Source: Lantana camara (taxonomy: Eukaryota > Streptophyta > Magnoliopsida > Lamiales > Verbenaceae). From it: a stretch of 64,000 nt of DNA. The position numbers and the translations under genes were made by a program. Positions 1,344-60,760 of the stretch are shown here, one piece after another. The stretch is from the NCBI GenBank assembly GCA_037501455.1, contig CM074858.1, positions 47,985,001-48,049,000 of the forward strand, read 5' to 3'. The notes under the pieces are model-generated. The model ran no database searches. It was not told the origin of the DNA and worked only from the letters and a program-made list of their open reading frames with translations. Each line of letters begins with the position of its first letter. The first letter of the stretch is position 1.

Positions 1344-1376
<33 letters not shown>

Positions 1377-13805: not shown

Positions 13806-13824
13806 ACAGAATCTGTCCTCGGAT

Positions 13825-18311: not shown

Positions 18312-18510
18312 CCTGTCCAATCAAACACTAACATGCATGCCAGATTTAGTCCATGCGTGACAATGCAATGAGTTCATTCAATTACAGAATCACGAATCAA
18401 GGCACACTATCACATAAAAAATGCAATCACTTCACATTAGCAGACAATTCTTAAAGCCGAACGACCTAACTGACTCAACACGACACTAGAACCCTGGTTT
18501 TGCAACCCTG

Positions 18511-24372: not shown

Positions 24373-25338
24373 GTTCCTCTGTAAATGCAGAACAGAGCAG
24401 AACAGGGGAGGCTCTCGGCATAACAACAAGAACACCCAAAACCCCACAAATCCACATTAAAATGCAGGAATTCTGGAAGTAAGCATGTATACATGTTCGA
24501 TATACAACCAAATGTAAATAAAATACCTAAATCACTCAAGGACACTAAGAATTCCCACTTTCAACTTCATATCTAAATTCACCACAAAAGCTCAACCACT
24601 TTAAGAATTCATGCTTCAATTCATGACATAATCATATATTCATACCCCAAGTAGCATATAATCCATTTATTACATAAATCATAAACCCTAGCTTCACCCT
24701 AAATCATCAAGGATCACATAGTCAAGCACTTACCCACCTTGAATGAAAGAAATGGATGAAGAAGATGAAGATGGATGATTTGGAGCTTAAAAACTTGGAG
24801 TTTCTTGAGCAAACTTGATGGTGATGATAAAATCTCTTCTTCCCTTTTCTTCTTGAAGAACCGAGCAAGCAAGGAGCAAATATGTTGGTGATTTTTAGGA
24901 TAAAATGAATGAAGAAGCTTGAGGAAGCTTTGTACGTGAATCACCATCCTTGATTTTTGTGAAATAATCAAATTGCCATTTAACCCCTCAAATATTCAAG
25001 TCATGCCATTAAGGGGGAAAGCTTTGGGAATTGATCAATTGAGTCCTTGGAAAAAGGCATGCAATTTGGTCCTTGAATTTCGGAAAAAGATCATCCAAGG
25101 ACAAGTTGACAATTAAATCATATTCGGTAATTATTTCACGTAATAAACATTTTCAAATTATGAGATAAATTACAAGTTTAATATAAATTTCATGAAATTT
25201 TGATAAAATATAATTTATAAAATTATAATAAACATAAGAATGTAATTAATGAAATTCGGGGCGTTACACACCCACTTATAAAGTGGGCTTAGTTCTCCTC
25301 CCCAACCGATGTGGGACAAACACCTTTGGCTTTTTACA

Positions 25339-26535: not shown

Positions 26536-29404
26536 TGTGACACCCCGTCTGCACGCAAGTTCAGGTTAGTGCCACGTGTAAGTTTAATTTCCGTATTTGT
26601 GTTTATTTTTTATTTTAATTGATGCATCTTATTTGAATTTCTTTCATTTATTCAATTCTTATATGAGCTATGTGAAATATTTGATATGTTTTGCCCTATT
26701 TGAATGTTTGAGATTTTTAATTCGAACCCGAGCATGCCTAATTTATGTAATACGTGAATTATATGATCCTTGGACTTAATTGTATGATTTATATATGTTT
26801 TGGACTTGTTTGTTTTGTTTTGGTCTCAATTGAATTTTATTTCAAACGTTTGGACCAATTAGCAATTTGGCCACTCTTGAGTCATTTGTTCGTAACTTGA
26901 GCTCGGGAACTCGGATTCGAGTTTCCTCATCTCCATTGGACTCGCGTCAACAATTTGGATCCAATGGGACAAGCCTCATAACTTTTTGACTTCGTTCCGA
27001 CCCACGACGATGCAGATTTCACCTTACGTACCTAGAACGCTTCTAAAACCTATATTTGACCCTAGACTTACTTTTGTACCTTCTCTTTGACCAAGAATTC
27101 AGCCATAACTCTCTCTCCCTCTCATTTTTGGGCTGAAAATCGTGCCCCCTCAAGAAGAAAGAAGAAAGGAGAAGCCATGGAAGGAAACCTCCATTTTTGC
27201 CCCTTTCAAGCTCAAGAACTAGTTTTTCTTGCTCCAATCTTTTAAGGTAAGAGTGGATTTGTTATCTCCTTATTCTTGTGCTTTTTTTACCCTACATGAA
27301 TCATATTCTATGCTAGAGATTCCATGGTTTTGGCTTGAATGATGAATAGTAAGGGTTTGTTAGAGATTTGAAGAACTTGATCACTTCTTGCTTTCTTGGA
27401 GTTTTATGACTTATTTGATGATCTATGAAGTTTATTTGTTACATATCTATGAACTTAATACATGTTAATTGATTAGAGTATGATTCACCATTGATGTACT
27501 TAGAGGTTTTGCAAGAAAATGGATAAAACATTTGCATCTCTTGATTCCCTTGCTTTGTCGGTTAATTTCATGAAACTCGGGTTGGTATTTGCTCATTTTT
27601 CTTGCATATATTTGTAGTATATTTGCATCATTCCATGTCTTTACATTGTTTTTTAGGTTTGGGATGAGTTTTTATTGAATTTGCAAGCTTGTTTCTCAAA
27701 TTTTTGTCCTCTGACCCAAATCCGCTGGGGTGGATTTTTGCTTTGAAAATAATCCACCGGGGTGGAGTTGAGGCAGGCCCTCGCGGAACTGTCTGCCCTA
27801 AAATCCACGGGGGTGGATTCCCCTTTCGAAAAAAATCCACCGGGTGGATTTAGGGCAGCGGCTCCTTTTCGCTCTGAACTTTATTTCCTTATTTTATTCG
27901 CTTATTTGCTTCTCTCCTACCCCTAATATGATCCCTAAGCTTTGCTAACATGTAATATTATGTGTTAATTTGCTTGTTTTAGATTTTTAAATTTTTTTGA
28001 TATGATTTGAACGAGTTATGATTTAATATGTCTTAAGTGATACATGTAATTCTTTCTTGAATCGTTTGTCTCCCTTATGCATTTTAAACTTATGAACACT
28101 TTTATTATGCTATAATATGATATATTATGAGTTTATTTCATATGGTATGAGTTTAATTGTTGAATTCCTTATGTGATATCTCGTTATTTGCTCCGATATG
28201 CCTAAATATGAATCCATATGATATGCATTGCATCCATTTGCATTCACCGTGCATCTAAGTGGCTCATGATCGAGTCTAAGTCATGAGTTTATGTTTGTAT
28301 GTCTCAGATTTGAGTTCGGGAGGTGTTGGTTCCGCCATTTAGCCTCTTCTTGGCCGTCAACGCTCATCCGTGAGCACTTTTGGTAAAAGGTGAGGTTTAG
28401 GTTTGTTTTCTTTTTTGTTAATACGACCTACAACCCTACGTGCTCGTTTTCAAGCCCGCATGTGACTATACTATTATATTTATATAATAGATAAGTGCTT
28501 ATAAGATACGTTTATGATCTTGTCATAAGATAAAATATTTTGGAATATATATATGAGCATATGTGAGCTTGAAAATGATTAGCAACAAGGCTATGCTCCA
28601 AACCATGTGTCTTCATACAAGCTTTGCTTTTCTTCAACTTGATATGTTTCGGATGACACGGACAGGCACGTTAAAAGCATAGGCCGAGTTGCACGGTAAG
28701 GTATGCTAAGGTATGTAAGTTTGTTACGTTCTAATTATGTTAAGTTACGAGTTTTGGTATGTTAAGTCTTGTTCAGATTTGCCGGGCCCAGGGAATTGTT
28801 GGTAAGGACGCCCGGGAGGGCAAGGGCCTTCGGGTTAAGCCTGTGCACGATTTCCATTTGAAGTACTAACGCACGACTCTTGGAGGTTGAGGAGGCGTGG
28901 TGCTTCAAGCACAATATGGGTTAGCTACCCCTTGTTCATTGGTAAGAGTGGTGAGGGTTTGCTCCCCGAGCTACATGTTGTTGGGGTTGGATTGATTATG
29001 ATTGTGTTTCCGGTTTTCATACGTATATTAATAAGTGGTAATTGAGCTATATTTTGTATATGACTCGATTTTGGTAAATGACTCGATTTTGGTAATTGAA
29101 GTATATATATGTTACCCATTTGTTAATGAATTATGTCAGAACTATTGATTTATGTATTAATTCGGGACAGGCTTCTAGGGATAGTTGAACCCGTTTTGTG
29201 GATTTATCTTCTTTAATTGTTGTAGTATGCTTCCGTTTTTTATTGTTTTGCGCGCTCTGGTCCTGTTTTAGCTCCGCCTGGCTTAGCGAGTGTGTGTAGG
29301 TTCCCGTTCGCTTAGTCTTGGGCTCATGTATGGATTTCTATTTCATATGTGGGTTCGGGGCTAGGTGCGGGGGATGTGGTGGCTCGCCGCTCCGGGCGCT
29401 ATAG
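26536..29404 (+). repeat. 3' LTR of the host LARD-like element
   Basis: Begins TGTGACACCCC; the right end is placed at GGGCGCTATA by comparison with other families (CTACA expected). Signals: donor TTAAG|GTAAG at 27246/27247; palindromes 27719-27850; acceptor CTCAG ending 28307; middle block 28308-28389 ending AAAAG|GTGAGG; stem-loop arms 28792-28800 and 28848-28856. The second acceptor with its hairpin is not found and appears lost. The U5 block is at 29275-29400. Confidence 0.78.
27719..27850. repeat. Palindrome array, AATCCACCGGGTGGATT type
   Basis: Four sites: 27719-27736, 27751-27766, 27802-27819 and 27834-27850. The arms (AATCCAC / GTGGATT) are constant; the centres vary. Confidence 0.85.
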
Positions 29405-29412
29405 ACCCTTTG

Positions 29413-29485
29413 TGCAGAAACTCTTCTGCATGAAAGTCCCCGGGAGGGGACTTTTGTGTGTAAAATCTCCCCGGGAAGGGAGATT
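29413..29485. repeat. Palindrome array, AGTCCCC/GGGGACT type
   Basis: Three palindromes: 29413-29430 (TGCAGAA arms), 29434-29453 (AAGTCCCC arms) and 29464-29485 (AATCTCCC arms, centre CGGGAA). They occupy the same relative place in this LTR as the arrays in the other families. Confidence 0.75.
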
Positions 29486-29646
29486 GGTTTGGGAACTTTG
29501 CATGGCTTTTATTTGTGCATTGCATTGTTTTGTGCATGTTTTATAAATATTAATACATGCATGCATGGGTATGTATTTATATCTATATGTTTGCATGCAT
29601 GCGTTTTGAAATTTAGTTAATTGTTGTGAATACATTCATGTTATAC

Positions 29647-29647
<1 letters not shown>

Positions 29648-29692
<45 letters not shown>
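29648..29692. repeat. (AT)n microsatellite
   Basis: About 45 bp of pure AT alternation followed by AT-rich sequence. Confidence 0.95.
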
Positions 29693-29695
<3 letters not shown>

Positions 29696-31497
29696 ATATT
29701 ATATTATATGATATAGATATATACATTATATAGTGTTTAAATGCATGGTGAATTATAGGTTACTTAATTATTTGGAATTATGGAATTACATTATTACCTA
29801 TTTCGTGTTTTTACCTAATTTCCGATCATGGTTTGAATGTATTTATTTATCTATTCTCTAATTGTAAACTTGATATAATTGAGCTATGATTGTCATATGA
29901 AGTTCATGACTTGAATTGCTACGAATCATGAAAGATATGAAATGTTTGGGCTTGAAACCTTCATGCTATGAATGTACTTGAAAGAATCACTTGAACTATG
30001 TGGCTTCATGACATCATTTTACTTCTTAAAGATCTCATACCATGTGCATAGCATTGTCGTGCGTCATATATAGTTCATTTAGAGTTTTGAGTCTCACGTA
30101 TGCACCATGTCGTTTCTTATACAGTTTTCTCCAGGGCGGAGACGTGCCGGGTTCATAGGTTACTCCCAAGTTTTTATTTCTTCTTGGTATTGTTCGGTAA
30201 GGTTTTACAGGTGGGTTTCTCTTCTATTAGTTAAAATGACCCTATTCATCCAATATGCAAAGCTTTTAAGCCAAAGTATTATTTATATTAATATATATAC
30301 ATCGAGTCTTTTCAAGAGTAAATGATTTTGAACGTAAAACCCTTTTTCTTATGTATCCACCGAATGATTTTGGCGAGAACACGAATGAACGCACGGGCCT
30401 AGGGACTTGATCCCATGTACTAGTCGCACCATGAACTACGGCGAAACCAACCTCGTCAGGAGTTGGCGAGGAAGGGGAACCGGGCTAGTGGGGCTTCATG
30501 GACCCCCCACTAGCTGTATTGATTGGGAGACGCATTCTCCTGGATGGGTCCCCCTGGGGCACCGGTTACACCATCGGGAGGAACAAAACCTGTAAGTGGC
30601 ATGGGTTCGCCCATGGTCCACCAGGTCAATATCTTCCGCTACGTATGGTAGACGCGTTTCTAATTGGAGGAAAAATGAGTAAATGTTATGAGTGAATGAA
30701 TGATAATGATTGAATGATCGAATGGATGAATGAATGATTGACTGTTACATGATCGTAATAAATGAACGAATAAATGCACACACGAGGAGAAGGTTGGAAA
30801 ATTCACCCTCTCGCTGGGCTCATGTATTGACGGCATGATTGTAATAAATAAACGAGATTGATAGTTGTAATCCCGGGCGTTGTTTTTTTTTTTGTTTTCA
30901 TCCACTTGAGAAATGTTTTAAAACCTCGTACGGGATTATGACTCGCGTGTGCGCTTTAGTTTTTGTAATATTACAATATTAAACCCTGTTTTATACCCAC
31001 CAATCTCCTATAGATTGAACCCGACTTTGTTTTAAGTTTTCTCTTGCAGTTGTTGGTGTGCTAGGCAGGATCTCGAGTCGGTTGTGTCGTGTGTGCGAGT
31101 TGGGTCACTTTATGCATATTGTAAATTGTATAAGTTATAGATTTATGTATAAATTGTTGATGATATTATATTGATTCGGGACAGGCTTCTAGGGATAGTT
31201 GAACCCCTAAAATTGTGAATTATGATTTATGCTTGAATTTCGGGACTAGGAATTTTGTTAGTGGAACCCCGTCGATTGCTAATTGTAATTATATTATGAC
31301 TGATTACATGTTTTGCTTCCGCGCATGCATTTTTATTCTTTGAATATTTGTTATATGGTTTCGAAGTTAGCTCCCGCCTAGCTTAGCGAGTGAGTGGTCC
31401 CTGTTCACCGTGATTCGGCTCGTGTATGGACTTCTCATTTCATATGCGGGTCGGGTCTTGGTGCGGGGGTTGTGGTGCCTTCCGTTTGGGGCGCTAC

Positions 31498-32691
31498 AAT
31501 GGCCAAGCAGCAGCAGCAGCAACAGGTCAAGTATAAGCAACACACAGCAGCAAGACGGAGTAAAGGAAGCAGCAAAACGCACACACAACACCCCACAATC
31601 AGCTACAACTCACGTAGTAACAATGATGCAAATAGATTGAAGTTTAATTTCATCTTTTCAAAGCTTTCATGAAGTGCAGCCTGGTAGATCATTATAAACT
31701 CAAGCAACATGAAAATCATGCATATAAATGAAACATATACACCATATACACCACGTATCTAGCTCCAATTCAGAAACGAAACAAGGAAGGCCAAGATTTC
31801 AACAAAAATTCATATAACCCTTACTATTAACATGTAAATTCAATGCATGCTCAAATCTCCATGAAATTTAGCAAAAAAGCACTTAAAAGAAAGAGGAGAA
31901 GATGGAGAATAAGATTCTGGACTTACCTTTCGGATTTGAGGTGAATCGGAGGTGTGCGGAGCTTGAAAAGGCAAAAGTGAATAGTACAAAATCCCCTTCT
32001 TTTTCTCTCTTGGTTTGCTGCTCCTTTTTCCTTCTCTTGGCTGATGATTTCAACATAAGGGAAGGAGAGAGTGATAGAGGGTTAATTTAGGTCAAATAGG
32101 TTTAAATATGGGGCGATTTGGTTAAGAAATGGGTCGGATATAAGCAAAACGGGCGAGGGTGGTGAATATGTCACAAGGGTTCGGTTTGGGCAAAATTTGG
32201 GGGGATCAAACGGGCTTAGAAAAATACAAAACTAGGTTCTTTAGCTTTCACTCTTCGTTATGAGTCTGATGATTCTTCCGGAATGCGAATCCGAATTCTC
32301 GAGCTCAAGTTACGCCTTCCGAAACCCAAGGTGCGCTAAAACGAGTTAGGCCCTCAAGTCCCTAACAAATAAAACGGTTCTAAAAACCATAACAAATGAA
32401 CTTAAAAACATAAAACGAACACGTAAATGAATACATAACATATATAACTCATGCATATCACGTAGTCACAACAATTAGAATCGAAAACGGGTTCAAAAGG
32501 ATCAAGAAAAAGGCAAAAGAGGAAAAAACGTTCAAAATTCTAAATACATACTTAGAAAATAATTCAAATAAATTCAAGAATAACATTTAAACAATATAAT
32601 AAGTATATATTTACATAAATAAATAATTTAAAAGAACAAATAACATACCTGTAGCGACGTACCTGTACGGTCGGACGAGCAGGATGTTACA
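31498..32691 (-). repeat. 5' half of a minus-strand LTR
   Basis: The minus strand starts TGTAACATCC at 32691. A donor-like AAAG|GTAAGTCC lies near 31925. The other half was separated by the LTR ending at 31497 and is outside the window. Contains CAG triplets at 31508-31521. Confidence 0.6.
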
Positions 32692-35136: not shown

Positions 35137-35430
35137 TGTAAGCACACATAAACGGATTAACTTTTTGGCAGAAATGAGTTTTATTGTCGTCTTAAGCCCA
35201 TGGTTACCTCGACTATAATCTTCGGGTGCTACTAGAGGCCCCATTGTCTCTCACGCCCCCAAATCTTTAGTCGTTGGATGATGGACTACTGTAAGAGAGA
35301 TTATTTTATGTGGGTTTTTCTCTGGCTGTGTTCTTTTTCGTGTATCAGACTTATCTCACAGACAAGTCTTATATATGGAATAGAGTAGGGTTACGTAAAC
35401 CTTTTTCTATCCTTTAGGAGTGCCACAACA
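35137..35430 (-). repeat. Short copia-like LTR relic
   Basis: 294 bp with TG...CA ends on the minus strand (TGTTGTGGCA at 35430, GTGCTTACA at 35137), adjacent to a primer site and with a TATA-like CATATATAAGA around 35370-35380. The small LTR suggests Ty1/copia. No partner LTR is in the window. Confidence 0.5.
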
Positions 35431-35461
35431 ATTATGAAAACTGCTCCCTAATCTTTAAGGA

Positions 35462-38350
35462 TGTTGCCGAATTTATTTATGCAATTATATGTTTATTATA
35501 TTGTTTAAATGCTAATTCTTGAATTATATGAATTACTTGTAAAGTGTTTTAAATGAATTTTGAACGTTTATGTTTGTTTGCCTTCAAATTTGATCTAAAC
35601 ATGCCCGTTTTCGATTTTGATTTTTGTGATAATTTGCTATGCATGAATTTTACGTGTTATGAATTTGTCTATATGCTCATTTTTCATTTTTGGATTTGTT
35701 TGATATGGTAACGCACCATAATTTATTTGTTAGGGACTTGAAGGCCTAACTTGTTTTAGCGCGCCTTGGGTTCCGGAAGGCGTAACTTGGGCTCGGGAAT
35801 TCGGATTCGAATTCCGGAAGAAGAGTCGGACTCTTAATGAAAATTGGAAGATTTTGAACCTACCTTTGTATTTTTCTAAACCCGTTTAAACCCCCGTATT
35901 TTGCCCAAAACTTGAACCTCGCACAGATTCGCCACCCTTCACCATTTTGACCGTAATTTACTCGTTTTAACACCGTTTGATCCGATTCTTGAACCTATTT
36001 CATCCTAACACCTAAACCTACCCTCTCACTTGCTCATTTCAACCTTAAACCCGAGGAGGACCGAGAGAGAGAAGGCAGAAAGGAAGAAAAAGGGGATTCT
36101 CAGCACTATTAACCCTTGGAGGATTTTGAGCTCGTTTCTTTATCATTTCTTCTCCGATTCAAAAGGTATGAATGAATTATTTCTCTCCATCTTCTTTCCT
36201 TTCAGTTAAGTCTAATTTTTCTGAATTTGATGGAGATTTGAGCATGTTATGTGATTATATATGAATAGTAAGTGTTTTATGAAAATTTGATGAATTGATG
36301 TGGAATCTTGATCCATTTCTTGATATGAAACCATTTATGTGATCTAGATAGATTATATGTTTCATTTCTAAGCATGAAATTTGCGGCTTTTTGATCCACC
36401 TTTGTTGAAATGTGAATTTTGAAGAATTAGGACTAATTTGCTTCCTTGTTGCTGCATGGGAGTTTACAGCTATTGTTGTGCTTGTTTAAGGGTAGATCTT
36501 CTTTGTTTTTGTTGCCCTATTATTGCCCTTTTTGTTGCCTTTCGTGTGCTGATGTTGCTGCTTGAAGAATGGAAGAAAATAGGGGTTGCTACTGTTCATT
36601 TTCGCGACTTCTGCGAGCTGTCGCGGTCGCGACCAAAATCAGGCCATTCTTGGTCATGGCCGCGACCCAATTTTACCCATGTTTCGACTTGTGAAGGCTG
36701 GGATTGCCGAGGCTGGTGGTGGTCACGTCTGTGACCACTTTCAACCTGTTTTTAGTCGCGGGCGCGACCCATTTTGAGGCTACCTTCAAGCTGTTGCCAC
36801 TGCACTTCTTTTTGTGTGATTTTTCTTTGTTTCGTCAGTTTGTTCGTGTCGCGCATGACCGTCTTAGCTCATATATGTTTAGTATTTGTTATATATCATG
36901 TTATGTGCTTTAATATGAATTTATAACGTAATTTCGATGCATATTCATGTGATATATGACAAGATATGTTTGTTATGTCTTCCTACGTGCATGCATGATG
37001 TGGTACTTCATTTACTTGCTTTGTTTTATATATCTTTGCTCGTTTTATGCTATGTATGTATTGTTAACATGTTTTATGACGTGTTATGCTCGTTGCATGA
37101 AATTTATGAATTTTTTTGACGTGAATTATGTGAATTATGGCTTAATATGAATTTATATGTGCTAAGTGTCACCCGGCTGCATTTTATGCGTATCAATTGT
37201 ATTTGTTGCCCCTTATATAAACTCCAAATGTATGAACGCTCGTGGTACGCTATTATATGACTTAGTATGAGTTTATTTGACATGTGAGGAGATTGTTCAT
37301 TTGATTACTGGTGGGATGTTTTGTTAATTGCTCCGATGTGCCTAAGTGTGAATTTTATGAAGTACATTGCATTATTTGCATTCATAAGCATATTCCGAGC
37401 ATCTAATTGGTGTATTTTGAGTGTAATTATGTCTTTGACCTTTGTTTTGTTCAGAGGTTTGTTCCGAGAGTGAGGAGGTAGTCCTTAGGTGAGCTTTGGT
37501 TCGCTTTCAATCAGTGTGGCCGACAAGGTGAGGTTTTCTTTCTTTTGGGTAATACGACCTATAACCCTATATGAATTTTGAAGCCCGCATGTGACTTAAG
37601 TATATATATGTAAATAGATACATGTTTGATATGTATTTTGTGGGAATTGGCCCGTTTGTTATGAAACGTTTGAAAAACGCCTTTATGTGTACGTAAGTTA
37701 TATTTTCGTTTGTTTGTTTTGAAAAAGGATTGGTGTGTGTGATTTTGAAACTAGCGAGTTATGGCTTTGAAAAATAATTCTGATTTTGAAAATTTAGAAC
37801 TTTTGAACAATTTAAAAAATTTGAACATTTAGAAGGGCCCCGGAGATTTATATGCAAAGGAGCCCCGAGACGGTGTTGGGCCGTCGGGTCACTCCCCACT
37901 ACGGTCTCCATACTTAAGGATTAACCCTGAACCCACCAGGAGGTTTGGTGGGGGATGGAGTCCTCGCTCATAAGCATCATGAAACTCACAACCCATACAG
38001 TGTGAACGATGGTTAGGGTAGGCACCACCCTTCCATCACCCGGAGAAGAGGTATGTCCGTTTGAATTATGTTTTTCGTTTGAATTTTGATTCAGAATTTT
38101 GATTATGAACGGAGTTAGGCGGTTTGAGACTCGCACTCACCGAGTTGTGTGATTTTGATTATGAAAATTATTCGTGAAACGGGAGTGCATTCCTAATTTA
38201 TAAATTTTGACAATTTTGGCATTCGGCCTTAACTCTTTTCTATGTAACTAATATTACCGGCTAAAATGTTTTAGATTGCAAAAACCACGCCCTGGTTTAT
38301 GAGCTTTCATGACTTTGGAATATGCTCTGATTCATGTATAAGTACGTGTG
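35462..38350 (+). repeat. 5' LTR, left part
   Basis: Signals: donor AAAAG|GTATG at 36165/36166; palindromes 36625-36769; acceptor GTTCAG ending 37454; middle block 37455-37527 ending ACAAG|GTGAGG; stem-loop arms 37842-37848 and 37903-37909. Ends at the GTGTG target duplication (38346-38350). Confidence 0.78.
36625..36769. repeat. Palindrome array, GGTCGCGACC type
   Basis: Four sites: 36625-36634, 36652-36667, 36721-36736 (GGTCAC / GTGACC arms) and 36754-36769. Arms are of the GGTCGCG/CGCGACC kind with varied centres. Confidence 0.8.
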
Positions 38351-39430
38351 TGTAACAGCCCAAAACAGGGCCTGGATGAAAACAGTAAGTTAAGGCAGTG
38401 GTAAAGCGTTTATAGACCGTGATCCAACTTTTTGAATCATCGTGCGTTGCATTCTTACATGAACTTTGTGCTCGTATATGATCTGACATGCTTTAAGGGG
38501 GAATTCTTGACCTTTGATTCAGTTTACTATTCATAACCCGAGCCTACCTTGTTCATATTGCTACTCGAACCCTAGAGGTTCATCACACATGTTTCCTAAT
38601 CGTTTGAACTTGTTTCCCGAACTCAGAAAGTCTTTCTTGAACCATAAGGGTATTTTTGGAACTTACCGACCAAAGTTACTATTCATCAGAAAATGAGCTT
38701 TTGATTCTGATACCTTTTTCAACCCAAGTTACAGTCGAATCGATCCTTGAGTCGAGACGAGTCTTTTGATATTATTCTTGGCTTGGAAATCCATTCCGGA
38801 ACTTTGTTTTATTGAAAACGGTTTTGAAAACCCTAGTTTACTATTCCTTTTACGAACGGTTTTCATTCGGAAAATGTTTTCTCTTCGGATTTGCACTACT
38901 TGAGCTATTTCAAGATTTTTGAGATGTTTTACAACTCTTGATTCAAACCCTAGCTTGAAATTTTGAAGCGTACGTTCGTACGTGAGAATTCACTATTCAT
39001 CCTACGTTTTCAACTTTTTAACGGTAAAACGTTTTATAGTCGATTTTGGACTCAAAACGCTTCTCGATTTATTTCTTGAATTTTGGAAGCAATCCGGACT
39101 TGAAAATCATTCTAGAAAGTCGTTTTTCACTCATGTCGAGTTTCGAGCTCAAAACTTTTATTCACTAAAACTAATGTATCTTTCAAACGGTAAATCCGAT
39201 TTCGACGAATGAATATGCGTTTCGAAGCTAATTTTCTTGCCGTCGGAATGGTTAAACTTCCAGCCACTTATCCTCGAGCCTTGGGGGACGAAATTATAGA
39301 AATACCCCCAGCAGCCCATTTTTAGCTTCAACATCCCTAAAGCTTCTAGAAGATACAAGTGGATGAACTCTTGTTTTGCTCTCCTACCCTTAAGCCATCT
39401 CTAATTGCAAGGTGAGGGGCTTCTTCACAC

Positions 39431-39440
39431 CTATATATAC
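39431..39440 (+). promoter_or_regulatory. TATA-like box in the 5' LTR
   Basis: CTATATATAC followed by a CT-rich stretch, the best core-promoter candidate in this LTR. It would put transcription start about 1.1 kb into the LTR, just upstream of the donor-like site at 39545. Confidence 0.55.
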
Positions 39441-40241
39441 CCCTCTCATGGCATTTGAATCCTTGCTCAAAGTCTTGTGTTAACAAACACTCCTCTCTCC
39501 CTCCTTTCCCCTCTTGCCGTCGGCATCCCCTCCCCTTGTAGCTAGGTTAGTTTGTTTTGTTTATGTTATGTTAGTTTAGTTTATGTTTTTATGTTATGGT
39601 ATGTTTATATTATGTTTAGGTTGGGTCTTAGGGTCTTCCCTAAGCCATATAGGATTTTATTTTATGCATTTATTATATAGTTTTCATGATATGTTTGTGT
39701 AGTTGTTTATATGTTCTAATTGTTTAGTATATGCTTGAATATGTTATGAATTGCTCTAGTATATGCTATGATCATGTGATATGCTTGTTATATTATGAGA
39801 ATTGATGCATGATTATGGAATTTGAATTATGTTCATGCATGTTAGCTAATGGAATAGTGATTTACAATTTATTATGTCACAACTTATTACATGTTGATAT
39901 GGAATTAAATTGTTACATGTTACATGCCTAAAGGTTTATGATATATGATATGATATGATATGAGATATGTTGTGACATGTTGTCACATTGTTATATGACT
40001 CTTGAATTATGAATTGAGCTTATGGTATGATTTGGATTAATGGATTAGTGCCTTGATCATGTTATACACTTTAATAGTGTCACATGTTATAACGTAAGAT
40101 AGATTAGTGTTTCATAACTTGATCTTATGCCTTAATTGGATCTCTTAACTATAGGTTATACCTTTAACCTAGATCACATTTGATTATATTAACATGAACT
40201 TGAAATTATAGGTTATAATCAAGATCATAATTTAATTAGGG

Positions 40242-40323
40242 TATGTGTGTGTGTGCATGCCGTGTGTGTGTGTGTGTTCGTGCATGGTGTGTGTGTGTGT
40301 ACCGCGTGTGTGTGGGTGTGTGT
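40242..40323. repeat. GT-rich microsatellite in the LTR
   Basis: Interrupted (GT)n. The 3' LTR copy near 50622-50703 differs by a 2-bp gain and a 2-bp loss, which keeps the LTR lengths equal. Confidence 0.9.
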
Positions 40324-41481
40324 ATAGTAAGGGTTTGACCCGACCCTTTGACCCGACATGTGAATAGTAACCGGTGAATAGTAATCGTGAATAGTAATCT
40401 TGAATAGTACTTTTGAATGGTGCTTTTGAATAGTAAAAATGAATTAAAACTTGTGCTTTCTCTATAGACATTTGCACCTAGGGTTTCCATATCCAGGGTC
40501 TAAAATGTGTTTTAAAAATGTGTTTTCTTTCGTGGACTTGTTTCTTTACCTAAGGTTTGCGATAGGATTCATAATTTGACTAAAGCTTACTCGGTTATAG
40601 TAAGATCATAGTCTAACGTTAAGAGTAACTCACTTTGACGTATTCCTTTGTGTGTTACCTTTCTTGAATACCTTAAATGGTATTACTCTCTTGTTTTACA
40701 TGTTCCTTGTTCATTTGTTTCTTGCATTTCATATGCATCTTGGTTAGTAGTGGGTCTTAGTTCTTAAGCTCACTCTAGTACGCCACCTACAGGAGTTAAA
40801 GTTGAGCACTGGGATCCCCAGGGCACCGCATAATCTGTCTACCTACCTTTTGTTACTATTAGGTGAGGTGAAGTTATAAATGTTTTCCAACTGGAACCAC
40901 GATTATACTATCGTATCATATGTTTTGAAATTCAAAGCTAAACCTTGTTTTGAACTATCCCTTTTATCGGGACATTCTCTTGAAAGGATCATTCATACTT
41001 TAATAGTATACATTGATCAACAGTACATGTTTTCCAAAGTTCTGCATTCTTGTTCAAAGACAGTTACATGTTTGCATATGTTTTCAAAGTACAGACAGAA
41101 TCACATGTTTTCAGACAGAATCATATGTTTTACAGACAGCATCATATGTTACAGTTACAGTTTCACATGTTATAGTTAGCATACTGGAGTGTTACTCTGG
41201 TCATTGCTAATCTTAAATGCAAGCATACAGTTTACAGTTTGGGCCCGGCGGTTATGTGTGGAGGTGATGCTCGGGAGGTGAGCGCCAACGACATCACCAA
41301 TACCGGCCGCCACACTTAGACTATTGACACCGACTTTTAACAGGAGGTTTGTTAAGTCAGGACAATTTGTCTGGGAACGGACAGCAAATCTGTTCCCATT
41401 ACATGTTTACAGGTCGCCTAGGGCTAGCTACCCGAAGTGACAACCGGTGGAGGATGGTGCATGTTTGTATGCGTTGGTAAG

Positions 41482-41641
41482 AGTTGTTGTTGACCTTGGT
41501 CCGATAGTCTACTATGTGCGGAGTTTTTGTTGACCTTGGTCCGATGCTCTACTATATGTGGGGTTATTGTTGATCTTGGTCCGATACTCTACTAAACGTG
41601 GAATTATCGTTGATCCTGGTCCGACACTCTACCGAATCATG
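41482..41641. repeat. Tandem repeat, four copies of 40 bp
   Basis: Units containing TGACCTTGGTCCGAT start their cores at 41491, 41531, 41571 and 41611, exactly 40 bp apart. The same array is in the other LTR at 51871, 51911, 51951 and 51991. Confidence 0.9.
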
Positions 41642-42508
41642 TTTTCTGGAGTAAGGATGGAGGAGCCTAGCTTGCGGGCAAAATTCTGTTTCATAAAGGA
41701 TGGTTCATATCTGGAAAAGTTCACTTTACCCTTATCCCGTTTTATGAAAGAACTATGAACCATCAACAGCATATGTGTGCGCGTGTGATAGCATTCATGA
41801 AAATGTTTTATAACGTGCATTCTTTTACAGCATCGCATTCAAAGAGTTTTATCAACCGAACTTGTTTCGAGTTCTTCTTTAAAACATCGCATTTAACAGT
41901 TTTGAACTTTACTTCAAGTTCTTTAATTCAGTACTTTCTTTAAAGTATTCCCTCACTTAGTCCTTTTGGCTAATACCTCTCCCGTTTTCTTGCCTCGTGG
42001 TTTCAGGTCTTGCAGCCGCAGTCTAGAGGTATCTTGAAGCTCTAGATTGTCATTTTTGTTTCAGTCAGGACTTAGTATTACTTCCTCTTTTGCGTCCTGC
42101 ATATGTTTTATGGCTGCATCACTTAATGTTTCTGTTTATGTTTTTGAATACTTGAGTATCTTTGTTATACTCTTTCTGCTACTCTGTTACCGATACATTG
42201 AACTCTGCTATATCGGTACTTATATGTGAATCTGTTATATGTTCTGATATGCCGAGTCTCTCTTACACGATCAATATGTTCTTGCTTGTTACATGCCATC
42301 ACGCACATGTTTTGAAAAGTTTTAAAATACTCTGATTTTCCGCTGCATAGCCACATCGTTGTACATGTATAGTTCTGATAGACAACCGTTCGCTGGAGTA
42401 TTTCTTGAGTGATGGCTCACACCATTACTTGAGAGGTGCTTCAGTGCGGGGGTTGAGACGCCGCTCTCCTCTTGTTCTGGTACGGGTGGGGGCGTTACAG
42501 CTCTGAGG

Positions 42509-42520: not shown

Positions 42521-42687
42521 ATCGGGTTAAGTAAGAAGAGACTTAACCTAGATTGCTCTCATGTTGCATCATGGATTGTTCACGCATTGCATCCAGGATC
42601 ATTCTCATATTGCATCGAGACGGGATATTTGGGGATTGCATGGTTCTGTTATCTGGATTTCATATCTGTGGTATCTTCTGTATAGCT

Positions 42688-43368
42688 ATGGCAGTTCAGC
42701 CACACCAGGATCCTAATCAGCAGATGGATGAGGCTTTCTTTGAGCAGTTTGAGGCCCCGCGTACTGTGGCAGTTTCTCACCGTAGAGGCACTCGTTTCTA
42801 CACCTGGCGCAGGTCTAGGAACAGTGGCAGACCTGGGTATTCCTATCCTAACAGAGTTGTGCACTATCTCGAGTCTGAGAGAGATGGTTACTTTCAGGAG
42901 TATCAGAGGACCCGTGAGGTCAGGTTGGAGTCTCTGCGCTATCAGGATCAGTCACTGCAGTACCAGATTGACAGGGACATCGCTCGTGAGCATGCTGCAG
43001 AGATGACTCATATTGCTGATCAGAGGGCTGCTCGTATTGCTGAGCTGGAGGCAGATCTTATGCAGATGACTACCGATCGCGATACCTCTATGGAGCGTCA
43101 CCAGCACTACCGTGCCCGTGTGAGAGCTCGCCTGTATGATACCTATCACTTATCCGATGAGCAGGCAGTTGAGGAGGTCGAGGGTCAGGATGTCAGTCAG
43201 GCCTCTCAGGAGCCCGAGCCTATGCAGGAGCAGTCTGATGGAGGCAATGGAGGGTCTGATGATGATGATGATGGCGGAGATGATCCAGCAGGACACGGAC
43301 AGGGTGAGGTCGTTGCCGTTTCTGATGACACCACCAGGGGTTCTTTGGACCACAGTTATCAGGGTTGA
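42688..43368 (+). CDS. Extra ORF upstream of gag, coiled-coil protein of unknown function
   Basis: 226 codons from ATG 42688 to TGA 43366-43368, uninterrupted. The frame is open further upstream (to 42553), but the 42688 start leads straight into hydrophilic sequence; the upstream part is Cys/Ile-rich and looks like leader. Visible parts: a basic Arg-rich patch at residues 31-48; a long charged helical stretch with coiled-coil character at about 60-145; and a Glu/Asp-rich tail (157-210) with a run of five Asp. No signal peptide, membrane segment or enzyme motif. It lies between the primer site and gag of a chromovirus. The other chromovirus in the window has only a 200-bp leader there. Ogre/Tat elements are known to carry an extra ORF before gag, but I cannot show homology. 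It is intact whereas gag-pol is broken. Function unknown; RNA or Gag binding would be speculation. Confidence 0.7.
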   Translation: MAVQPHQDPNQQMDEAFFEQFEAPRTVAVSHRRGTRFYTWRRSRNSGRPGYSYPNRVVHYLESERDGYFQEYQRTREVRLESLRYQDQSLQYQIDRDIAREHAAEMTHIADQRAARIAELEADLMQMTTDRDTSMERHQHYRARVRARLYDTYHLSDEQAVEEVEGQDVSQASQEPEPMQEQSDGGNGGSDDDDDGGDDPAGHGQGEVVAVSDDTTRGSLDHSYQG

Positions 43369-53535: not shown

Positions 53536-56500
53536 TGTGACGCCCCGCTTCTCGATCAAGGTATGTTTTGGTACGAGAGTGAACGATTTACCTTGCTTTG
53601 CATGATTTATGTGAAATTATACCTCAATTTGATCGTCGTTTTGTGCTTATGTGAAATCTATGATTTGCATGGTATTTGTGACTTCTTGATATGTTAATTA
53701 CGTGTTCGTATAGTCCTTGTTGAGCTTTGATAGCATGCTTCGCGATTAAACGAAACTATGTGCCTATTTGGATATTTAAAGTATAATTAGGGACAAATTG
53801 GTAAATTTATATTATCAAGCCTGGATCTAGTTAGAACTTAATGAATTTGGGTATATAATTTGATTATGAGTTCGTGGGTTCTTGAATCGCTCAATTCGTA
53901 GTTCGGATGAAGAAGTTATGGCCATTTTACGAAAAGTCAACCTTTTAAGCCTCAATTGTTGACCTGCGACCCAATTTCGAATTTAACATAATTTGAGACC
54001 TAATTTCACTTATAACCCGCTCCAATTGACCCGGTTTGTGACCCAAATAGCTAACCCAATTTGTTAAATCAGATTTTAACATTCCAAAACCCATATTACG
54101 TTATTTTGCAAGATTCAAACTCACTTTCCTCTCAACCCATTCATATTCTCTCAAGAACACCAAGAACATCTTCAAGCACTCCCAAGAGACAAGATTGAAG
54201 ATTCAATCTGGAGATTCAAGATTAAAGAACTCGACTTTCTCTTCGATTTCCAGCTCTTAAGGTAAGGTTTATGTGCTTTTTTGTTGGGTTTGTGTTCTTG
54301 AAGGTTTTGAGCTTATATTTGATCTAGGGTTCTTATTTGTTGGATTGAATTCGAATTTCTTGTTGGAAATATGTTTATTTTGGTGTTAGAAACATTTTAG
54401 TATAAGAATTTCTTGTTTTTATGCTCTTATGTGAAATCCACTATTTTTTACCTTTGAAGCTTTTATGAAGGATTCTTGCATGTTCATGTTCCTGTGTGTT
54501 TTAGCTTGATTTCGTGTTGGATTCTTGTTCCTTAAGTAATATCATGAAGAATGTGATTAATTCCCTTAAGCTTCTCTCATGATTGAGGATTTCACCATTG
54601 TTGAGCTTGAAACTTGAATGACTTGAAGAAAATGATGTTCTTGTGTGAAATTATTGAATTTCTTGATGATTATGTGTTCTAAGGTGTCCTTGACATGTTA
54701 TTCAATGTTAATTGATGTTTATTCATGTTGTATAAGTTTCAAAGCATGATTTTGGAGTATTTAGAATGCATTTTCGTCATTTTTTTAGCATATGTTCGTA
54801 TTTGAGGTTTTGCTCGAGTTGTGTCTCTGTACCGAGACATGACTATGTCTCAATTTTGGCTTAAGGAGAGACACGCCCGTGTCTCAAGGTAGATTTCAAA
54901 CCATTTTGGTTTTATACCGAGATACGGCCGTGTCTCACTTTACACTACGGGGGAGACACGGCCGTGTCTCACCTCTTTTGTGTAACTGCTGTTCATTTTG
55001 CTTTTCGTTCGCTTATTTCGTTATTTCCTTGCTTTATTTTCACTTCCATTACACTACCTACACCCCTAGTATAATATGTTATACTTGGAATCATGATTAT
55101 ACATGTTGTAATGCCTTGCATACCTCGATCATGTGTAATAATGTGCTAAGAATGATTCACATGTTATTATTGCTTATCTTATGACTTGAAAGCTTGTAAT
55201 TGCTACACTTATGTTATCTTTGGACATTCATAGTGCATCATTAGCGTATTTACATTTACTTTGAAACTGTGCATCGTTTGAATTGGTTTCGAGTCGTGTC
55301 TTACCCTTGTTAGTACGTTTGTCTTGTTAGGTGGTGAGTCTCCGGACGAGTAGCTTGTTTGCTCATGGTTGGCCTTCGAAGTTCTTGGTAAAGGTGAGGA
55401 GTTATGATATAAAATGTTTTCAAAATTGTGGACACATATGACCTATCATGTTTGATGATTTAGACCTCCGTTTTCAAAGCATATATGTAGGCTTTATAAG
55501 CCAAGTTTTGTGTGCATTGCTCGTATTACGGTTATTGTATATGGAAAATGGTTTGAAAGTAAAATTTGAGTTGGTATATTGGATAAGTTCCCAAAATGCT
55601 CTTCGAACTTTCATTGAATATTATATACGTAAGAGTTGTGTAGCGAGATTTTTTGCCCCATGCAAGGACGCTTGCTTAGGTGGATGTTCTAGCGCTTGGG
55701 GACCAAGGTGAGTGATATTCCAGGAAGGAAAGGGCCGACGGAGGTCCTCATTCAAAGTTCCCACATGTAAGAACTTATTAACTAAAACTCCGAGGAGGTT
55801 TCGGGGTTAAGGTTTGCAAGGGAGAGGCCATTTTCATGGACCCCTCTCTTCATATGGTAAGGATATTCGGGGGCTGTACACCCACGACATCAATGGTGTA
55901 AGGATGGATTGGTTTGATTTCGATTGGTTTGAGAAGTAAGGATGGAATGCTCGTACTTGCCGAGTCGGTGCTTTGGTTCATGATTCGTGTTATAAAATTT
56001 GCATTTGTTTTGAAAATAAGTTGGATCATGAACGTCTTTGTTTTGAGCATGCATTGAACCTCTTACAGTACCTATATTATGTAACTTCTCCTCACCGGTT
56101 CCTTTTGAACTGACTTAACTTACCTTCGTGTCCGCTGGTTGCATTTTGGAGTCAAGTTAGGTGGGGTCTTGTTGAGTGTCTTGTCTTTGAGTCTAGTTTG
56201 TACTCGTTGTGCTTGTAGCATACTTTACCTTTTATGTTATGTTTCGGGATTTATGTATTTAGTATGTATGATATTTTATTATGCTAGTTTGGACCGTGTT
56301 GGTCATTACATTTCGTACTTTGAGCATTTTGTCACGGTCACTTTATTTGATGAATGAATGAATTTTATGCACGTGTTAGGTTTTGATTTAAGCTTCCGCA
56401 TACTTGTGTTTGAATTACTTGCTTTGTGAGTCTAGTACCGCCTAGCTAGGATGTCTGTTTATCACCGCTTGCTTCGGTCTTGGCGGGTATATGGATAGCA

Positions 56501-57470: not shown

Positions 57471-60400
57471 TGTAACGCCCCAATTTTTAGACAGTCAGGT
57501 ACGCTCGACACGTGTGGGTTTCGAGCGTTAGGATTTTATTTTATTACTTTCGTTTATTCAACTTATATGTGTTATATTAATTTTATAAATTGTATCCCAC
57601 TATGTTTACGTGAAAATATGTGAAATATCTATCAATTTGGGAATTACTTTATAAATTGAATTCATTTGGTACGTGAAATAATTGTCGAACATGAATTATT
57701 TGCTTAATTGTCTTTAATTGAATATTCTTGTAAATTAAGGGACCAAATTGCATAACCTTTTCATGGATTTAATTGACCATTTATCAAACTACTTATACTT
57801 GATTGCATAACTTATACCTTTGGAGGATTTAATTGCAAATACTACATTTTCTCAAGAAATATCACGTTATATGCTTCTTCCATCTTCCATTCATTTCATT
57901 TCAACACATACACACCTCCTTATTTGCTCTCCTTCTACCGAGCCAAAACTTCCAAGAAGGGAAGAAGAATTTCATTATTTCAAGCTATTATTTTGGAGGA
58001 ATTATGAAATTTTGGAGCATCATCATCATCCATCTTCATCTCTTTTCTTCTTTTTCCACTCAAGGTAGATATGCTCATATTCATATGAATTCATGAATTA
58101 ACATGTGAAGCTAGGGTTGATGATTTAAACTTGATAATTTGTGTATTTGTTTTTAGAAGTATGATTACATGCTTGTACCTTGAATTTCATGTTCAAATCT
58201 TGAGATTTATGAAATTATATGATGAATTCATACATGAGCTTGAAATGATGATTATGATGATTAAAGTGTGGTTTGTGTGGTTATGTTGGGTTTTTATTAT
58301 ACGTTAAGCATGCATATATGTTCCTTTTCATGAATTATAGCATTTGGGATTTAATTATAAGAGTTTTGGTGAGATTTGGAATGTGATCATGCTTCCCCTG
58401 TTTTCCCGACACCCCTCCGCTGTTCCAATTGCTCTGGTTTTTCTACTGTAGTAAGTATTTGAAGTGTAGAATACTCTCCTTTTTACGGTTCGTTGATATC
58501 TATTTTCGTTTGGACTTATGGCCGTTTAAATTTGGTGCCGCCAAACTGTCACGAATCTGCATTAACCCAAATTTGGACCTAAGCCATTTTCATTCCGCTT
58601 TGAAATAAATTACGAGCCATACATCATCAGAAAGGTCTTTGTGTCTAGTTTCAAACCCAACAAACAAAACTCAATTCCAAATTCTAAAACTTAAAATATT
58701 TCAGTTTTCTGACAGCATGCGTATTTCCAAAAAAACTGGAAATGTGACAGCTTGTATCTAGTGACTTCAAATCCAATTTTCGAACTTATACAACCTCTTT
58801 TCTGAAAACTGTTTTAATGGAATATTCCTAACATATTAAGGTTTATCTCTGCCAAATTTCGCGTTCATCCGAGCTCGTATGATGCTTGAAAAAAATTCCG
58901 AACGACACTGCTGTTCTGTCCCCTATTTTGCCCTGTTTCTGATCTGATTTTTTCCGACTGAGCAGATGCTGTAAACCTTTGAATTTTAAAAAACTGTTTT
59001 ATATAAAAGTACCTATATATGTGCGGAGTATACCTACAAAATTTCAAAATTTTTCGACTTCGTTTGATGTGGTAAACTCACCTATCTTTGAAAGGTGTCA
59101 CTACAACAAAGTTGTTGTATTGTTTAAATTTGATCGAAAATCTATAATTTTATAGAAATATTTAGGAAATGAGAGCAATACCATTTAAAAGATATGGCTG
59201 TCTAGTTTTCTAGGAATTTGCGGTTCGTTAAAATACCTTTCGAGCAATAAGTTATGTTGAATTTTCTACAACGTGCGCATGTAAAGAATTTCTGCATAAA
59301 ATTGAGATTTTCACTTTCAATTCCAATGGTTTTATTGATCCCAATTTGTGATTACATGATCAATTACATGCCATAATATGAATATCTCATGCTACATTCG
59401 TGAATGCATGTCATCTCGTTACCTGATCATGCCGTGCGTCATATTTGGTACCATTATTGAGCCCTATCTCACGAGTGCACAAATGTTTCCATTTCTTATC
59501 CAGTTCTTCTCCAGGACGGAGATTGTTGATCATGAGCACGTTTATGGATCCATGAGTCGTCGTGTCGCCTGTCAGGTGAGGTTTAATTCTAGTTACATAG
59601 AACCTGTACAACCTATACGTGAGCTTTCGGCCAAAAGGTATTTATATTTATACTTTTCCATGAAACTACTCATGATTTCAAGCAAGTCACGTTTAATGCA
59701 ATCAAGCCATGTTCATGAAAACCAAGCAAGCCATATATCGTGCATGTTTTAGGCGAGTAAGCATGATTGTTCACTTTGGGCCCGAGGGTAGTGGCTTGAG
59801 CCAACTGGGAAAGCATGGGCTGACGGGTAACTCTCGCGCTATCCTCACTATATTGGGATGACCCCTGAATCCGCTAGGAGATTAGTGGAGGAAGGAGTTC
59901 CAGGGTTAGGGATTCATGTACCCTCTGCTCAACATGTCGTGGATGGTAAAGGCCAGCTACCTTTCCATCATTGGAGGGAGAAGGAGACTGGGGACGGGTC
60001 CGGCACCACGGATTGTCCTCGGGTTATTGCATGATTTCTATTCTTTGATTGTATTGCCTGAATACACTATCGCACTAATGCACGGTAATTGAATTGCATG
60101 ATCACCTATTGATTAATTAAGCAAGCATGATTTATTTACATTTGGAGTATGGTTGGAGAATGCCCTCACTCGTCGGGCCATGTATCGCATGAAATGAATT
60201 GAATGGGTAATTAAATTGGACAGTTGTATTCTCGGGCGAAGAATATCTCATTATTGAACTTATAGTCTTTTCTTTTCCAAATCTTTACCCGAGAATATAA
60301 CTTGCATATTAACTGCGCTAATATTTATTTAAACCCCTCACTCAGTCTTCCATAGACTGACGCCTCCACCTTTCAGGTACGTGCAGGTGCGTGCTAGGCG

Positions 60401-60760
60401 GGAATCGAGTCAAGTCCAGTCTTTGCATTTCGAATCATGCACGGTTCATTTATTTATTGTTACATATGAAATTATTGCTATTGTTATTGATACAGATTAT
60501 GTATTATGGAGCTGATCATGTATTGATATGTGAGACATAGTTAGAGATAGCATGTTTTGATACTTGGTATGTGATATTGGATATATTATGCTTCCGCGTT
60601 ATTTCTGATGCATTTACAAGTTAGTCACGCCTAGCTAGTTGTCATTTTATTTTATTGTCACCCATTCGCTGCAGGTTGGTTCATGTACGGACTATCCATT
60701 TCGTGTGTGGATCGACCTGTAGTACGGGGGTGTGGCATCTCCATGTGCAGGGATGCTACA
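57471..60760 (+). repeat. 5' LTR (3290 bp)
   Basis: Starts TGTAACGCCCC and ends GGATGCTACA. Signals: donor CAAG|GTAGAT at 58064/58065; acceptor ATCCAG ending 59503; middle block 59504-59575 ending TCAG|GTGAGG; stem-loop arms 59784-59793 and 59837-59846; hairpin 60343-60359; acceptors TTTCAG ending 60376 and GTGCAG ending 60386; block GCTAGGCGGGA at 60393. No palindrome array is visible in this family. Confidence 0.9.

Follow-up and report, generated by a model that had tools for sequence, protein, structure and literature searches.

A putative spliceable leader encoded inside the long terminal repeats of chromovirus-type Ty3/gypsy retrotransposons in Lantana camara

For Diaspora, a soybean Ty3/gypsy retrotransposon of the Athila lineage described in 2005, the available text of the paper gives five predicted splice donors, all in the long terminal repeat (LTR) and 1400 to 2200 bp upstream of gag-pol, together with two predicted acceptors that flank the gag start (PMC1142308). 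For barley BARE1, the available sections describe separate RNA pools for translation and packaging, splicing that is tied to translation, and a U-rich intron of the plant type (PMC3735527). Retrosat2, a rice Ty3/gypsy element placed under Tekay/Del in PMC6317226, is described in the excerpted text as having LTRs of more than 3.2 kb; the TATA box is put at about nt 230 of the LTR, and an R region of ~2 kb begins at nt 244 (PMC3485330). In the accessible portion of a sunflower survey, two Ty1/copia elements are found to be spliced, and the highly expressed elements include no Tekay (PMC7730604). Here, we analyzed a 64,000-nt window of Lantana camara (GCA_037501455.1, contig CM074858.1, positions 47,985,001 to 48,049,000), which is made up of nested plant Ty3/gypsy retrotransposons, with nine insertions supplying LTRs. 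Judging from the anatomy of these LTRs, we consider it fairly probable that they encode a spliceable leader of chromovirus-type elements with two RNA fates, in which unspliced RNA would serve as genome and spliced RNA as message. The spliceable leader of the original prediction is supported by a pooled splice score, by steps in ATG and T/C content at the first donor, by an ATG-poor middle exon, and by compensated hairpins; the part that does not hold is the freeing of the RNA from ATGs through the third exon first proposed.

Throughout, positions refer to the whole window, LTRs are labeled P1 to P6 on the plus strand and N, M1, and M3 on the minus strand, and a slash within a motif marks a predicted splice junction. 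The order of sites is a first donor (D1), an acceptor (A1), a short exon 2, a second donor (D2), and a later acceptor (A2 or, further downstream, A3), with an extra donor (D0) near the LTR start. Exon 2 is a block of 63 to 86 nt between an acceptor-like AG and a donor reading AG/GTG(A or G)G in nine LTRs. All nine of the originally listed middle blocks exist, eight with exact ends, and the ninth, given as 23921 to 23866, truly ends at 23856 (66 nt), which displaces the earlier range of 56 to 86 nt; the ending AG/GTGAGG holds for seven of the nine, with AG/GTGGGT in the blocks at 30125 and 2421. When the LTRs are aligned with the GT of D2 as anchor, columns -2, -1, +3, and +5 each show a single base in all nine, whereas the mean top frequency outside is 0.52. 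The fixed columns correspond to a 5' splice site, and the neighboring exon and intron vary. ATGs are scarce in exon 2, with 5 in 650 nt compared to 21.2 expected from the flanks and 10.2 from composition, and six of the nine blocks have none.

59504..59575, plus strand: exon 2 of P1; an alternative AG would start it at 59515; 3 ATGs
40793..40862, plus strand: exon 2 of P2; 0 ATGs
37455..37527, plus strand: exon 2 of P3; 0 ATGs
55331..55393, plus strand: exon 2 of P4; 1 ATG
28308..28389, plus strand: exon 2 of P5; 0 ATGs
30125..30210, plus strand: exon 2 of P6; 0 ATGs
4199..4272, minus strand: exon 2 of N; an alternative AG would start it at 4261; 1 ATG
2358..2421, minus strand: exon 2 of M1, 3' LTR copy; 0 ATGs; donor gone in the 5' copy
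23856..23921, minus strand: exon 2 of M3; 0 ATGs; end corrected from 23866

Upstream of exon 2, D1 is found in all eight LTRs that reach that far. The eight first donors listed originally are all present, seven of them as AAG/GT and the one at 39545 as TAG/GTTAGT, and among the GTs between LTR +100 and exon 2, D1 is the top-scoring one of 64 to 133 in seven of the eight LTRs and the sixth of 170 in P2. Pooled over the eight LTRs, there are 4 ATGs in the 150 nt upstream of D1 versus 57 in the 150 nt downstream (0, 4, and 0 in successive 50-nt bins upstream, then 16 and 21 downstream); random GT sites in the same LTRs have a mean of 35.6 ATGs in the upstream 150 nt, and 0 of 19,999 random sets have as few upstream or as large a step. 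The reverse word CAT takes no such step up, with 15 in the last 50 nt upstream and 7 in the next 50 nt. Composition changes at the same place, T going from 24 to 37% up to 44 to 47% and C from 20 to 32% down to 8 to 13%, with C dropping and T climbing in 8 of 8 LTRs, and the 150 nt upstream of D1 are marked by pyrimidine runs and GAA-type words; in M1 these 150 nt hold no ATG. These steps look like those from a scanned 5' leader exon into a plant intron, and argue for a transcription start upstream of D1, which the position of the Retrosat2 TATA box and R region also fits.

57945..58064, plus strand: exon 1 of P1, the 3'-most 120 nt; 1 ATG
58065..59503, plus strand: intron 1 of P1; 44 ATGs
39546..40792, plus strand: intron 1 of P2; 58 ATGs
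39432..39439, plus strand: TATA box of P2, TATATATA, 114 nt upstream of D1

Over the eight LTRs together, 120 ATGs fall within the first 300 nt of intron 1, where ~52 are expected from composition, as if ATGs had been retained there to keep unspliced RNA from being translated. In five of the eight LTRs, intron 1 also holds GC-rich perfect palindromes (M1 20136-20315, N 5042-5085, P4 54953-54970, M3 24147-24296, and P3 36625-36634), which are repeated within M1, N, and M3 and whose letters vary by family (ACACGGCCGTGT, ATGGGAACGGCCGTTCCCAT, GGTCGCGACC); they might be sites of RNA dimerization or of protein binding to DNA.

The whole layout was scored with approximate plant splice matrices as the best ordered donor-acceptor-exon-donor-acceptor model, with dinucleotide shuffles as the null. 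Shuffled LTRs, named beforehand as a possible refutation, often matched single LTRs, which partly goes against the finding: out of 60 shuffles, the number reaching the score was 0 for N (row N3), 2 for P1, 3 for P3 (row P3a), 6 for M1, 10 for P5, 15 for P2, 18 for P4, and 32 for M3. Summed over these eight LTRs, the score is 257.7, compared to a shuffle mean of 231.0 (sd 6.7) with 0 of 300 shuffles reaching the sum, and to 218.9 for the antisense strand. Left unconstrained, the best model chooses the claimed D2 in six of eight LTRs and the claimed first AG in four of those six. In P1 and N3 it takes the neighboring AG instead, 11 nt further downstream, and in P2 and M1 (the 5' copy, in which the donor is lost) it settles on other sites. 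Donors scoring at least 9 in the seven full LTRs number 15 in sense versus 3 in antisense, and by our reading of the lists 11 of the 15 are D0, D1, or D2. Pooled, the sequence has the features of plant spliceosomal introns (GT-AG ends, a U1-like donor, a U-rich intron, and a less U-rich exon), and single LTRs vary.

Two conserved hairpins lie in the predicted intron 2. The first, of 6 to 7 bp, is found just upstream of A2 in eight of the nine LTRs, and in nine rows from these eight (M1 counted twice), 90.5% of cells are paired and four pairs are changed on both sides. None of 500 shuffles equals it on pairing, on pairs changed on both sides, or on covariation score, 3 do so on cells with a double change and 96 on pair types, and control versions slid along the sequence are 12 to 43% paired. 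Its 3' arm carries CTGAC, CTGAA, CTAAT, or TTGAA, which by consensus we take to be branch-point-like. In the six LTRs with a TGCAG acceptor, the A of this sequence lies 24 to 54 nt ahead of the acceptor's end, and in P1, N, and M1 there is a nearer CAG at 16 to 17 nt. We propose that this hairpin masks the branch point, and that it probably weakens splicing and leaves part of the RNA whole.

60342..60360, plus strand: hairpin at A2 of P1, 3' arm with the branch-point-like CTGAC
41957..41973, plus strand: hairpin at A2 of P2
52903..52919, plus strand: hairpin upstream of the acceptor of P3, exon start 52974
56095..56113, plus strand: counterpart of the A2 hairpin in P4, the acceptor itself being poor
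31000..31018, plus strand: hairpin at A2 of P6, exon start 31050
3515..3533, minus strand: hairpin at A2 of N, exon start 3490
1649..1667, minus strand: hairpin at A2 of M1, 3' copy, exon start 1619
23089..23107, minus strand: hairpin at A2 of M3

The second hairpin has the loop AGGAG(G or A)TT(T), or AGGAGTT in P6, on stems that vary freely yet compensate. In a set of seven LTRs that was chosen after the hairpin had been seen and aligned by its loop, with P5 and M3 left out of the count, 42 of 42 cells are paired and six of six pairs show double changes, and out of 2000 shuffles, none equals this on pairing, 8 on double changes, and none on covariation. Since this hairpin would be present only in unspliced RNA, it may be the place of a packaging or export signal.

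59870..59889, plus strand: intron-2 hairpin of P1, TCCGCT-AGGAGATT-AGTGGA
41336..41356, plus strand: intron-2 hairpin of P2, TTTAAC-AGGAGGTTT-GTTAAG
37932..37952, plus strand: intron-2 hairpin of P3, CCCACC-AGGAGGTTT-GGTGGG
55787..55807, plus strand: intron-2 hairpin of P4, ACTCCG-AGGAGGTTT-CGGGGT
30452..30470, plus strand: intron-2 hairpin of P6, CTCGTC-AGGAGTT-GGCGAG
3910..3930, minus strand: intron-2 hairpin of N, TCCACC-AGGAGGTTT-GGTGGA
2066..2085, minus strand: intron-2 hairpin of M1, 3' copy, TTCACT-AGGAGATT-AGTGAA

Intron 2 additionally contains tandem repeats, with 40-nt units in both P2 LTRs (41441-41672 and 51821-52052) and three 103-nt units in M3 (23405-23713). Outside the LTRs, N, M1, and P2 each have a stem-loop immediately ahead of the polypurine tract (5942-5959 on the minus strand, 13809-13826 on the minus strand, and 48695-48712 on the plus strand), with stems that differ yet pair (GGACCT with AGGTCC, GAATC with GATTC, and GAATCT with AGATTC) and a similar loop containing GAGGAC or TAGGAC.

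At the downstream end of intron 2, the original prediction placed the last acceptor before GCTAGGCGGGA in each LTR. An exact or one-mismatch copy of this motif is present in six of the nine (P1, N, M1, M3, P6, and P3, where it lies past a 14.5-kb nested insertion) and missing or degenerate in P4, P2, and P5; P4 has only GTTAGGTGGGG, with a poor acceptor, and P2 lacks the motif yet has TTGCAG before 42016.

59576..60386, plus strand: intron 2 of P1
60387..60760, plus strand: P1 after A2 (TGCAG/G), beginning near GCTAGGCGGGA; 13 ATGs from A2 to the primer-binding site (PBS)
42016..42021, plus strand: first bases of P2 after A2, TTGCAG/CCGCAG

Close to the LTR end, 232 to 312 nt downstream of the motif GCTAGGCGGGA from start to start, stands its complement, TCCCGCCTAGC (P1 60393-60635; also N, M3, M1, P6, P4, and P3). 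Covariation of this long-range pair was considered and rejected (92% paired, one double change, not above shuffles), and a fold of the stretch in P1 gave no extra stability, 68 of 100 shuffles being as stable.

It was originally proposed that joining D2 to A2 frees the RNA of an ATG-rich leader, and this fails for the third exon as first drawn, because 10 to 16 ATGs remain between A2 and the LTR end in the six LTRs counted (P1, P2, P4, N, M1, and M3, with A2 approximate in P4 and M3). It is therefore more likely that the translated RNA uses A3, which lies 1 to 2 nt upstream of the ATG of the first open reading frame (ORF) in both gag-pol elements (P2 42686 and M1 18312) and in M1 is the top-scoring acceptor in the stretch after the PBS. 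The first ORF of M1 runs into gag, with an in-frame stop. With exon 2 free of ATGs in P2 and M1, and the 150 nt before D1 free of them in M1, splicing of D1 to A1 and of D2 to A3 would make the ATG of the first ORF the first ATG and drop the PBS.

42686..42691, plus strand: acceptor A3 of P2, TATCTTCTGTATAG/CTATGG, first-ORF ATG at 42688
18307..18312, minus strand: acceptor A3 of M1, GTTTGATTGGACAG/GATGCC, gag ATG at 18311

The same counts bear on a first alternative, namely that only D1 to A1 and D2 to A2 are spliced and that exon 3, running through the PBS to gag, is the translated RNA. TGCAG is kept at A2 in all six rows compared (M3, P4, and P5, which lack it, were left out), and a branch-point-like site lies within the A2 hairpin, which is backed by compensatory changes, both of which points speak for the use of A2. 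We nevertheless regard this alternative as unlikely, as the ATGs left in exon 3, joined in P2 by three more between the PBS and the first ORF, led us to reject D2-to-A2 splicing as the sole translated form, and A2 is missing from P5. Moreover, an RNA that retains the PBS would be expected to leave intron-less LTR copies, and a search of the window for spliced copies of 14 D1-to-A1 and D2-to-A2 junctions found none, the sole match being P1's own acceptor. A message spliced to A3 lacks the PBS and could not be copied, which would explain this absence. A conserved third donor just behind A2 was also considered and rejected, as it is strong in P1 only.

A second alternative concerns the transcription start, and would have the promoter near the 3' part of the LTR, in the AT-rich TTTATA just upstream of the A2 hairpin, which would make D0, D1, exon 2, and D2 part of U3, transcribed only in the 3' LTR and at most splice sites of a 3' untranslated region (UTR). 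Short R regions are usual, N, M1, and P6 do carry the sequence TTTATACCC ahead of their A2 hairpins, and D0 does fall in U3. However, a start ~30 nt below the TTTATA box would lie inside the compensated hairpin (by our own count on N), a 3' UTR gives no grounds for an ATG-poor, GAA-rich, and pyrimidine-rich exon 1 that ends at D1, and the P2 TATA box is 114 nt before D1. The R region of the related Retrosat2, described in the available text as ~2 kb from LTR nt 244 (PMC3485330), points the same way, and we judge a promoter in the 3' part improbable.

D0, which is new relative to the original prediction, is a strong donor at LTR +25 to +30 with scores of 9.5 to 12.1 in five of the seven full LTRs (P1, P4, P5, N, and M1); it is weak in P2 and absent in M3, and 25-nt windows holding a donor of at least 9.4 make up 0 to 2.7% of each LTR on either strand. 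Lying in U3, it could enter a transcript only through the 3' LTR or in read-through RNA. Our guess is that it may permit an intron in the 3' UTR or, through U1, prevent early polyadenylation, a use to which foamy viruses put a donor in their own LTR (PMC3694450). An argument from nonsense decay was considered for D0 and rejected, since the M1 stop is ~63 nt before D0 (our own count), too far to argue.

57499..57504, plus strand: donor D0 of P1, CAG/GTACGC, at LTR +28

A third alternative is that the sites are unused, and that shared ancestry, along with conserved signals of another kind in the DNA or RNA (such as those for a promoter, poly(A), or packaging), happens to resemble splice sites. 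This would fit the relatedness of the LTRs and the single-LTR shuffles that often match the model score, and it is the least probable of the three given a pooled score beyond every shuffle and far above antisense, the ATG and composition steps at D1, and a conserved part at D2 that is the donor consensus itself.

Several points weigh against a spliceable leader, beginning with the scoring matrices, which are approximate, and with the single-LTR shuffle tests, which are weak for P2, P4, M3, P5, and M1. The LTRs compared are related, the sites were partly picked by eye beforehand, and the case is one of sequence anatomy alone in one genome. D2 is destroyed in the 5' LTR copies of N (CAA/GTGAGG) and M1 (CAG/ATTGGT), at 10642 and 19677, the 3' copies being intact. 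Taken singly, the ATG step does not stand out in P4, where a fraction of 0.36 of the GT sites have one as large, or in N (0.16), and it is modest in P5, M1, and P3 (0.06 to 0.08). As to the transcription start, a TATA box stands at a fitting distance in P2 only, there is none upstream of D1 in N, and the others are at least 216 nt away; the single ATG before D1 in P2 is ~14 nt upstream of the start predicted from its TATA box. P5 lacks A2, the entire stretch being missing, and, beyond the way in which the intron-2 hairpin set was chosen, M3 has no such hairpin and P5 only a shifted 5-bp stem. A3 is predicted from two elements, and in P2 it scores only 5.0 and is not the top acceptor of the leader; the first ORF of P2 encodes 226 amino acids (42688-43368), without a Pfam match, and lies ahead of gag.

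The LTRs themselves are as follows.

57471..60760, plus strand: LTR P1, followed by an iMet-type PBS, TGGTATCAGAGC, at 60768
38351..42499, plus strand: LTR P2, 5' copy, of a gag-pol element; 3' copy at 48731-52879
35249..38350, plus strand: LTR P3, left part, start uncertain; right part at 52881-53404, past the nested P2
53536..56564, plus strand: LTR P4; D0 53561, D1 54262
26536..29402, plus strand: LTR P5; D0 26565, D1 27247; without acceptor A2 and the A2 hairpin
29421..31498, plus strand: LTR P6; 5' part missing, so no first donor; left limit arbitrary
3110..5923, minus strand: LTR N, 3' copy; 5' copy at 9554-12718; D0 5893, D1 5368
18532..21507, minus strand: LTR M1, 5' copy, of a gag-pol element; 3' copy at 12716-13790 and 1196-3107, split by N; D0 21478, D1 20791
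22640..25268, minus strand: LTR M3; D1 24737; D0 absent; intron-2 hairpin not found

Element N sits inside the 3' LTR of M1. Gag and pol domains are found in P2 and M1, with protease, reverse transcriptase, RNase H, and integrase in Ty3/gypsy order in both, and the integrase C-terminus of M1 carries a chromodomain (PF00385, E 6.4e-06, 26.4 bits versus a cut-off of 25.1); the piece of P2 that was searched gave no chromodomain match at E up to 1. A PBS, presumably of the tRNA-Met type, follows P1, P2, P3 (with one mismatch), N, and M1. The elements are chromovirus-type Ty3/gypsy retrotransposons, possibly of the Tekay/Del clade, a placement with which we take the long LTR, the terminal repeats, and the tRNA-Met-type PBS to agree. 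Surrounding sequence was originally called mostly unalignable, which is partly so, except that P1, N, and M3 align in stretches at 64 to 81%; the nine are thus separate but related insertions, not independent inventions. In a protein search with 7984 candidates scored, the named organisms among the 120 matches listed are flowering plants, with identities of 43 to 66%. An Rfam scan of the window yielded no family at its gathering score, and the pol query found no relative among viral contigs, against which two DNA patterns gave eight GC-rich chance matches for one and none for the other. Among genome contigs, the pol query found four loci in bacterial assemblies, three of which are short retroelement contigs (L001, L002, and L003, from three assemblies: NZ_VCHY01000050.1, CAKZKU010000297.1, and NZ_SWBM01000019.1) and probably represent contamination; L001 has a PBS, and its gag start was unusable, with the AG before the ATG scoring 3.3 and the frame closing immediately.

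Returning to the leader with two RNA fates, a complete LTR would carry a promoter, an exon 1 ending at or near YTCAAG/GTAAG, a long ATG-rich intron 1, the short exon 2, and D2. The unspliced transcript would retain the hairpins of the introns, the whole of R, and the PBS and become the genome, and its 42 to 98 leader ATGs (six LTRs counted) would prevent scanning to gag. In the spliced transcript, exon 1 would be joined to exon 2 and exon 2 to either A2 or A3; the A3 form, with the first-ORF ATG first and the PBS gone, would be translatable and not reverse transcribable, whereas A2 may be of use in the 3' LTR or in another class of RNA. More tentatively, and with the balance leaning against so full a version, long chromovirus LTRs might act as a retrovirus-like switch of RNA fate, in which introns of the R region carry genome-only signals (the AGGAG(G or A)TT hairpin for packaging or export and the palindromes as dimer sites) along with translation-blocking ATGs, splicing through D1, A1, D2, and A3 removes these with the PBS to leave a pure first-ORF message, and D0 does likewise for the 3' UTR. 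Such elements fill large parts of plant genomes, and we know of no explanation for why some of them have LTRs of 3 to 4 kb. An intron-bearing LTR leader, if real, would explain both this length and how one repeat yields translatable and copyable RNA, and the donors, the branch-point hairpin, and the intron-2 hairpin are sites that can be checked by long-read RNA.

BARE1 is a Ty1/copia element. It resembles the arrangement proposed here in dividing translation from packaging RNA and in its U-rich intron and, according to the available sections, differs in that the intron, 104 nt long, lies in the coding region and Gag alone can be read once it is removed, and in that the pools differ by promoter, cap, and poly(A) (PMC3735527). 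Ogre and EVADE likewise have functional introns, with part of the RNA unspliced; in EVADE the protease region is spliced out to give a short gag, and in the portions consulted neither element is described with an intron in the LTR leader (PMC12786077, PMC6317226). In these three, the intron lies in or beside the coding region, unlike the introns here, which lie in the LTR leader, though A3 would fall where the coding region begins. Foamy viruses likewise have their major splice donor within the LTR, ahead of the poly(A) signal and, per the excerpted text, controlled by RNA structure (PMC3694450). The donors predicted here precede the 3' part of the LTR, and would correspond to a foamy-virus-type donor if they lie in R, upstream of the poly(A) site. 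Foamy viruses are, unlike these elements, animal retroviruses, and to our knowledge they have no internal leader exon or two-intron leader. Retrosat2 has similar terminal repeats (TGTCACACCC...GGGCGTGACA against TGTAACGCCCC...GGGCGTTACA) and, like P2, an extra ORF before gag, the 226-amino-acid ORF of P2 recalling the ORF0 of the Retrosat2 family; LTR splicing is not treated in the text available, where "splic" occurs once, in the reference list (PMC3485330). The original statement that no such LTR leader had been described was not quite right, as the Diaspora paper had already given predicted donors in the LTR and predicted acceptors on either side of the gag start, and Diaspora shares with the LTRs here both the donors and the problem of a very long leader; it differs in being one element of the Athila lineage and not a chromovirus, known by software prediction only, and the available text has no mention of exon 2, conservation, or hairpins (PMC1142308). 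No later report of such a leader was found in the open-licence literature, which misses most subscription papers. Introns in or beside coding regions and donors in LTRs were thus already known, and what appears to be new is a conserved three-exon leader encoded inside chromovirus-type LTRs, with which an untested remark of 2005 on one element would become a rule for a group.

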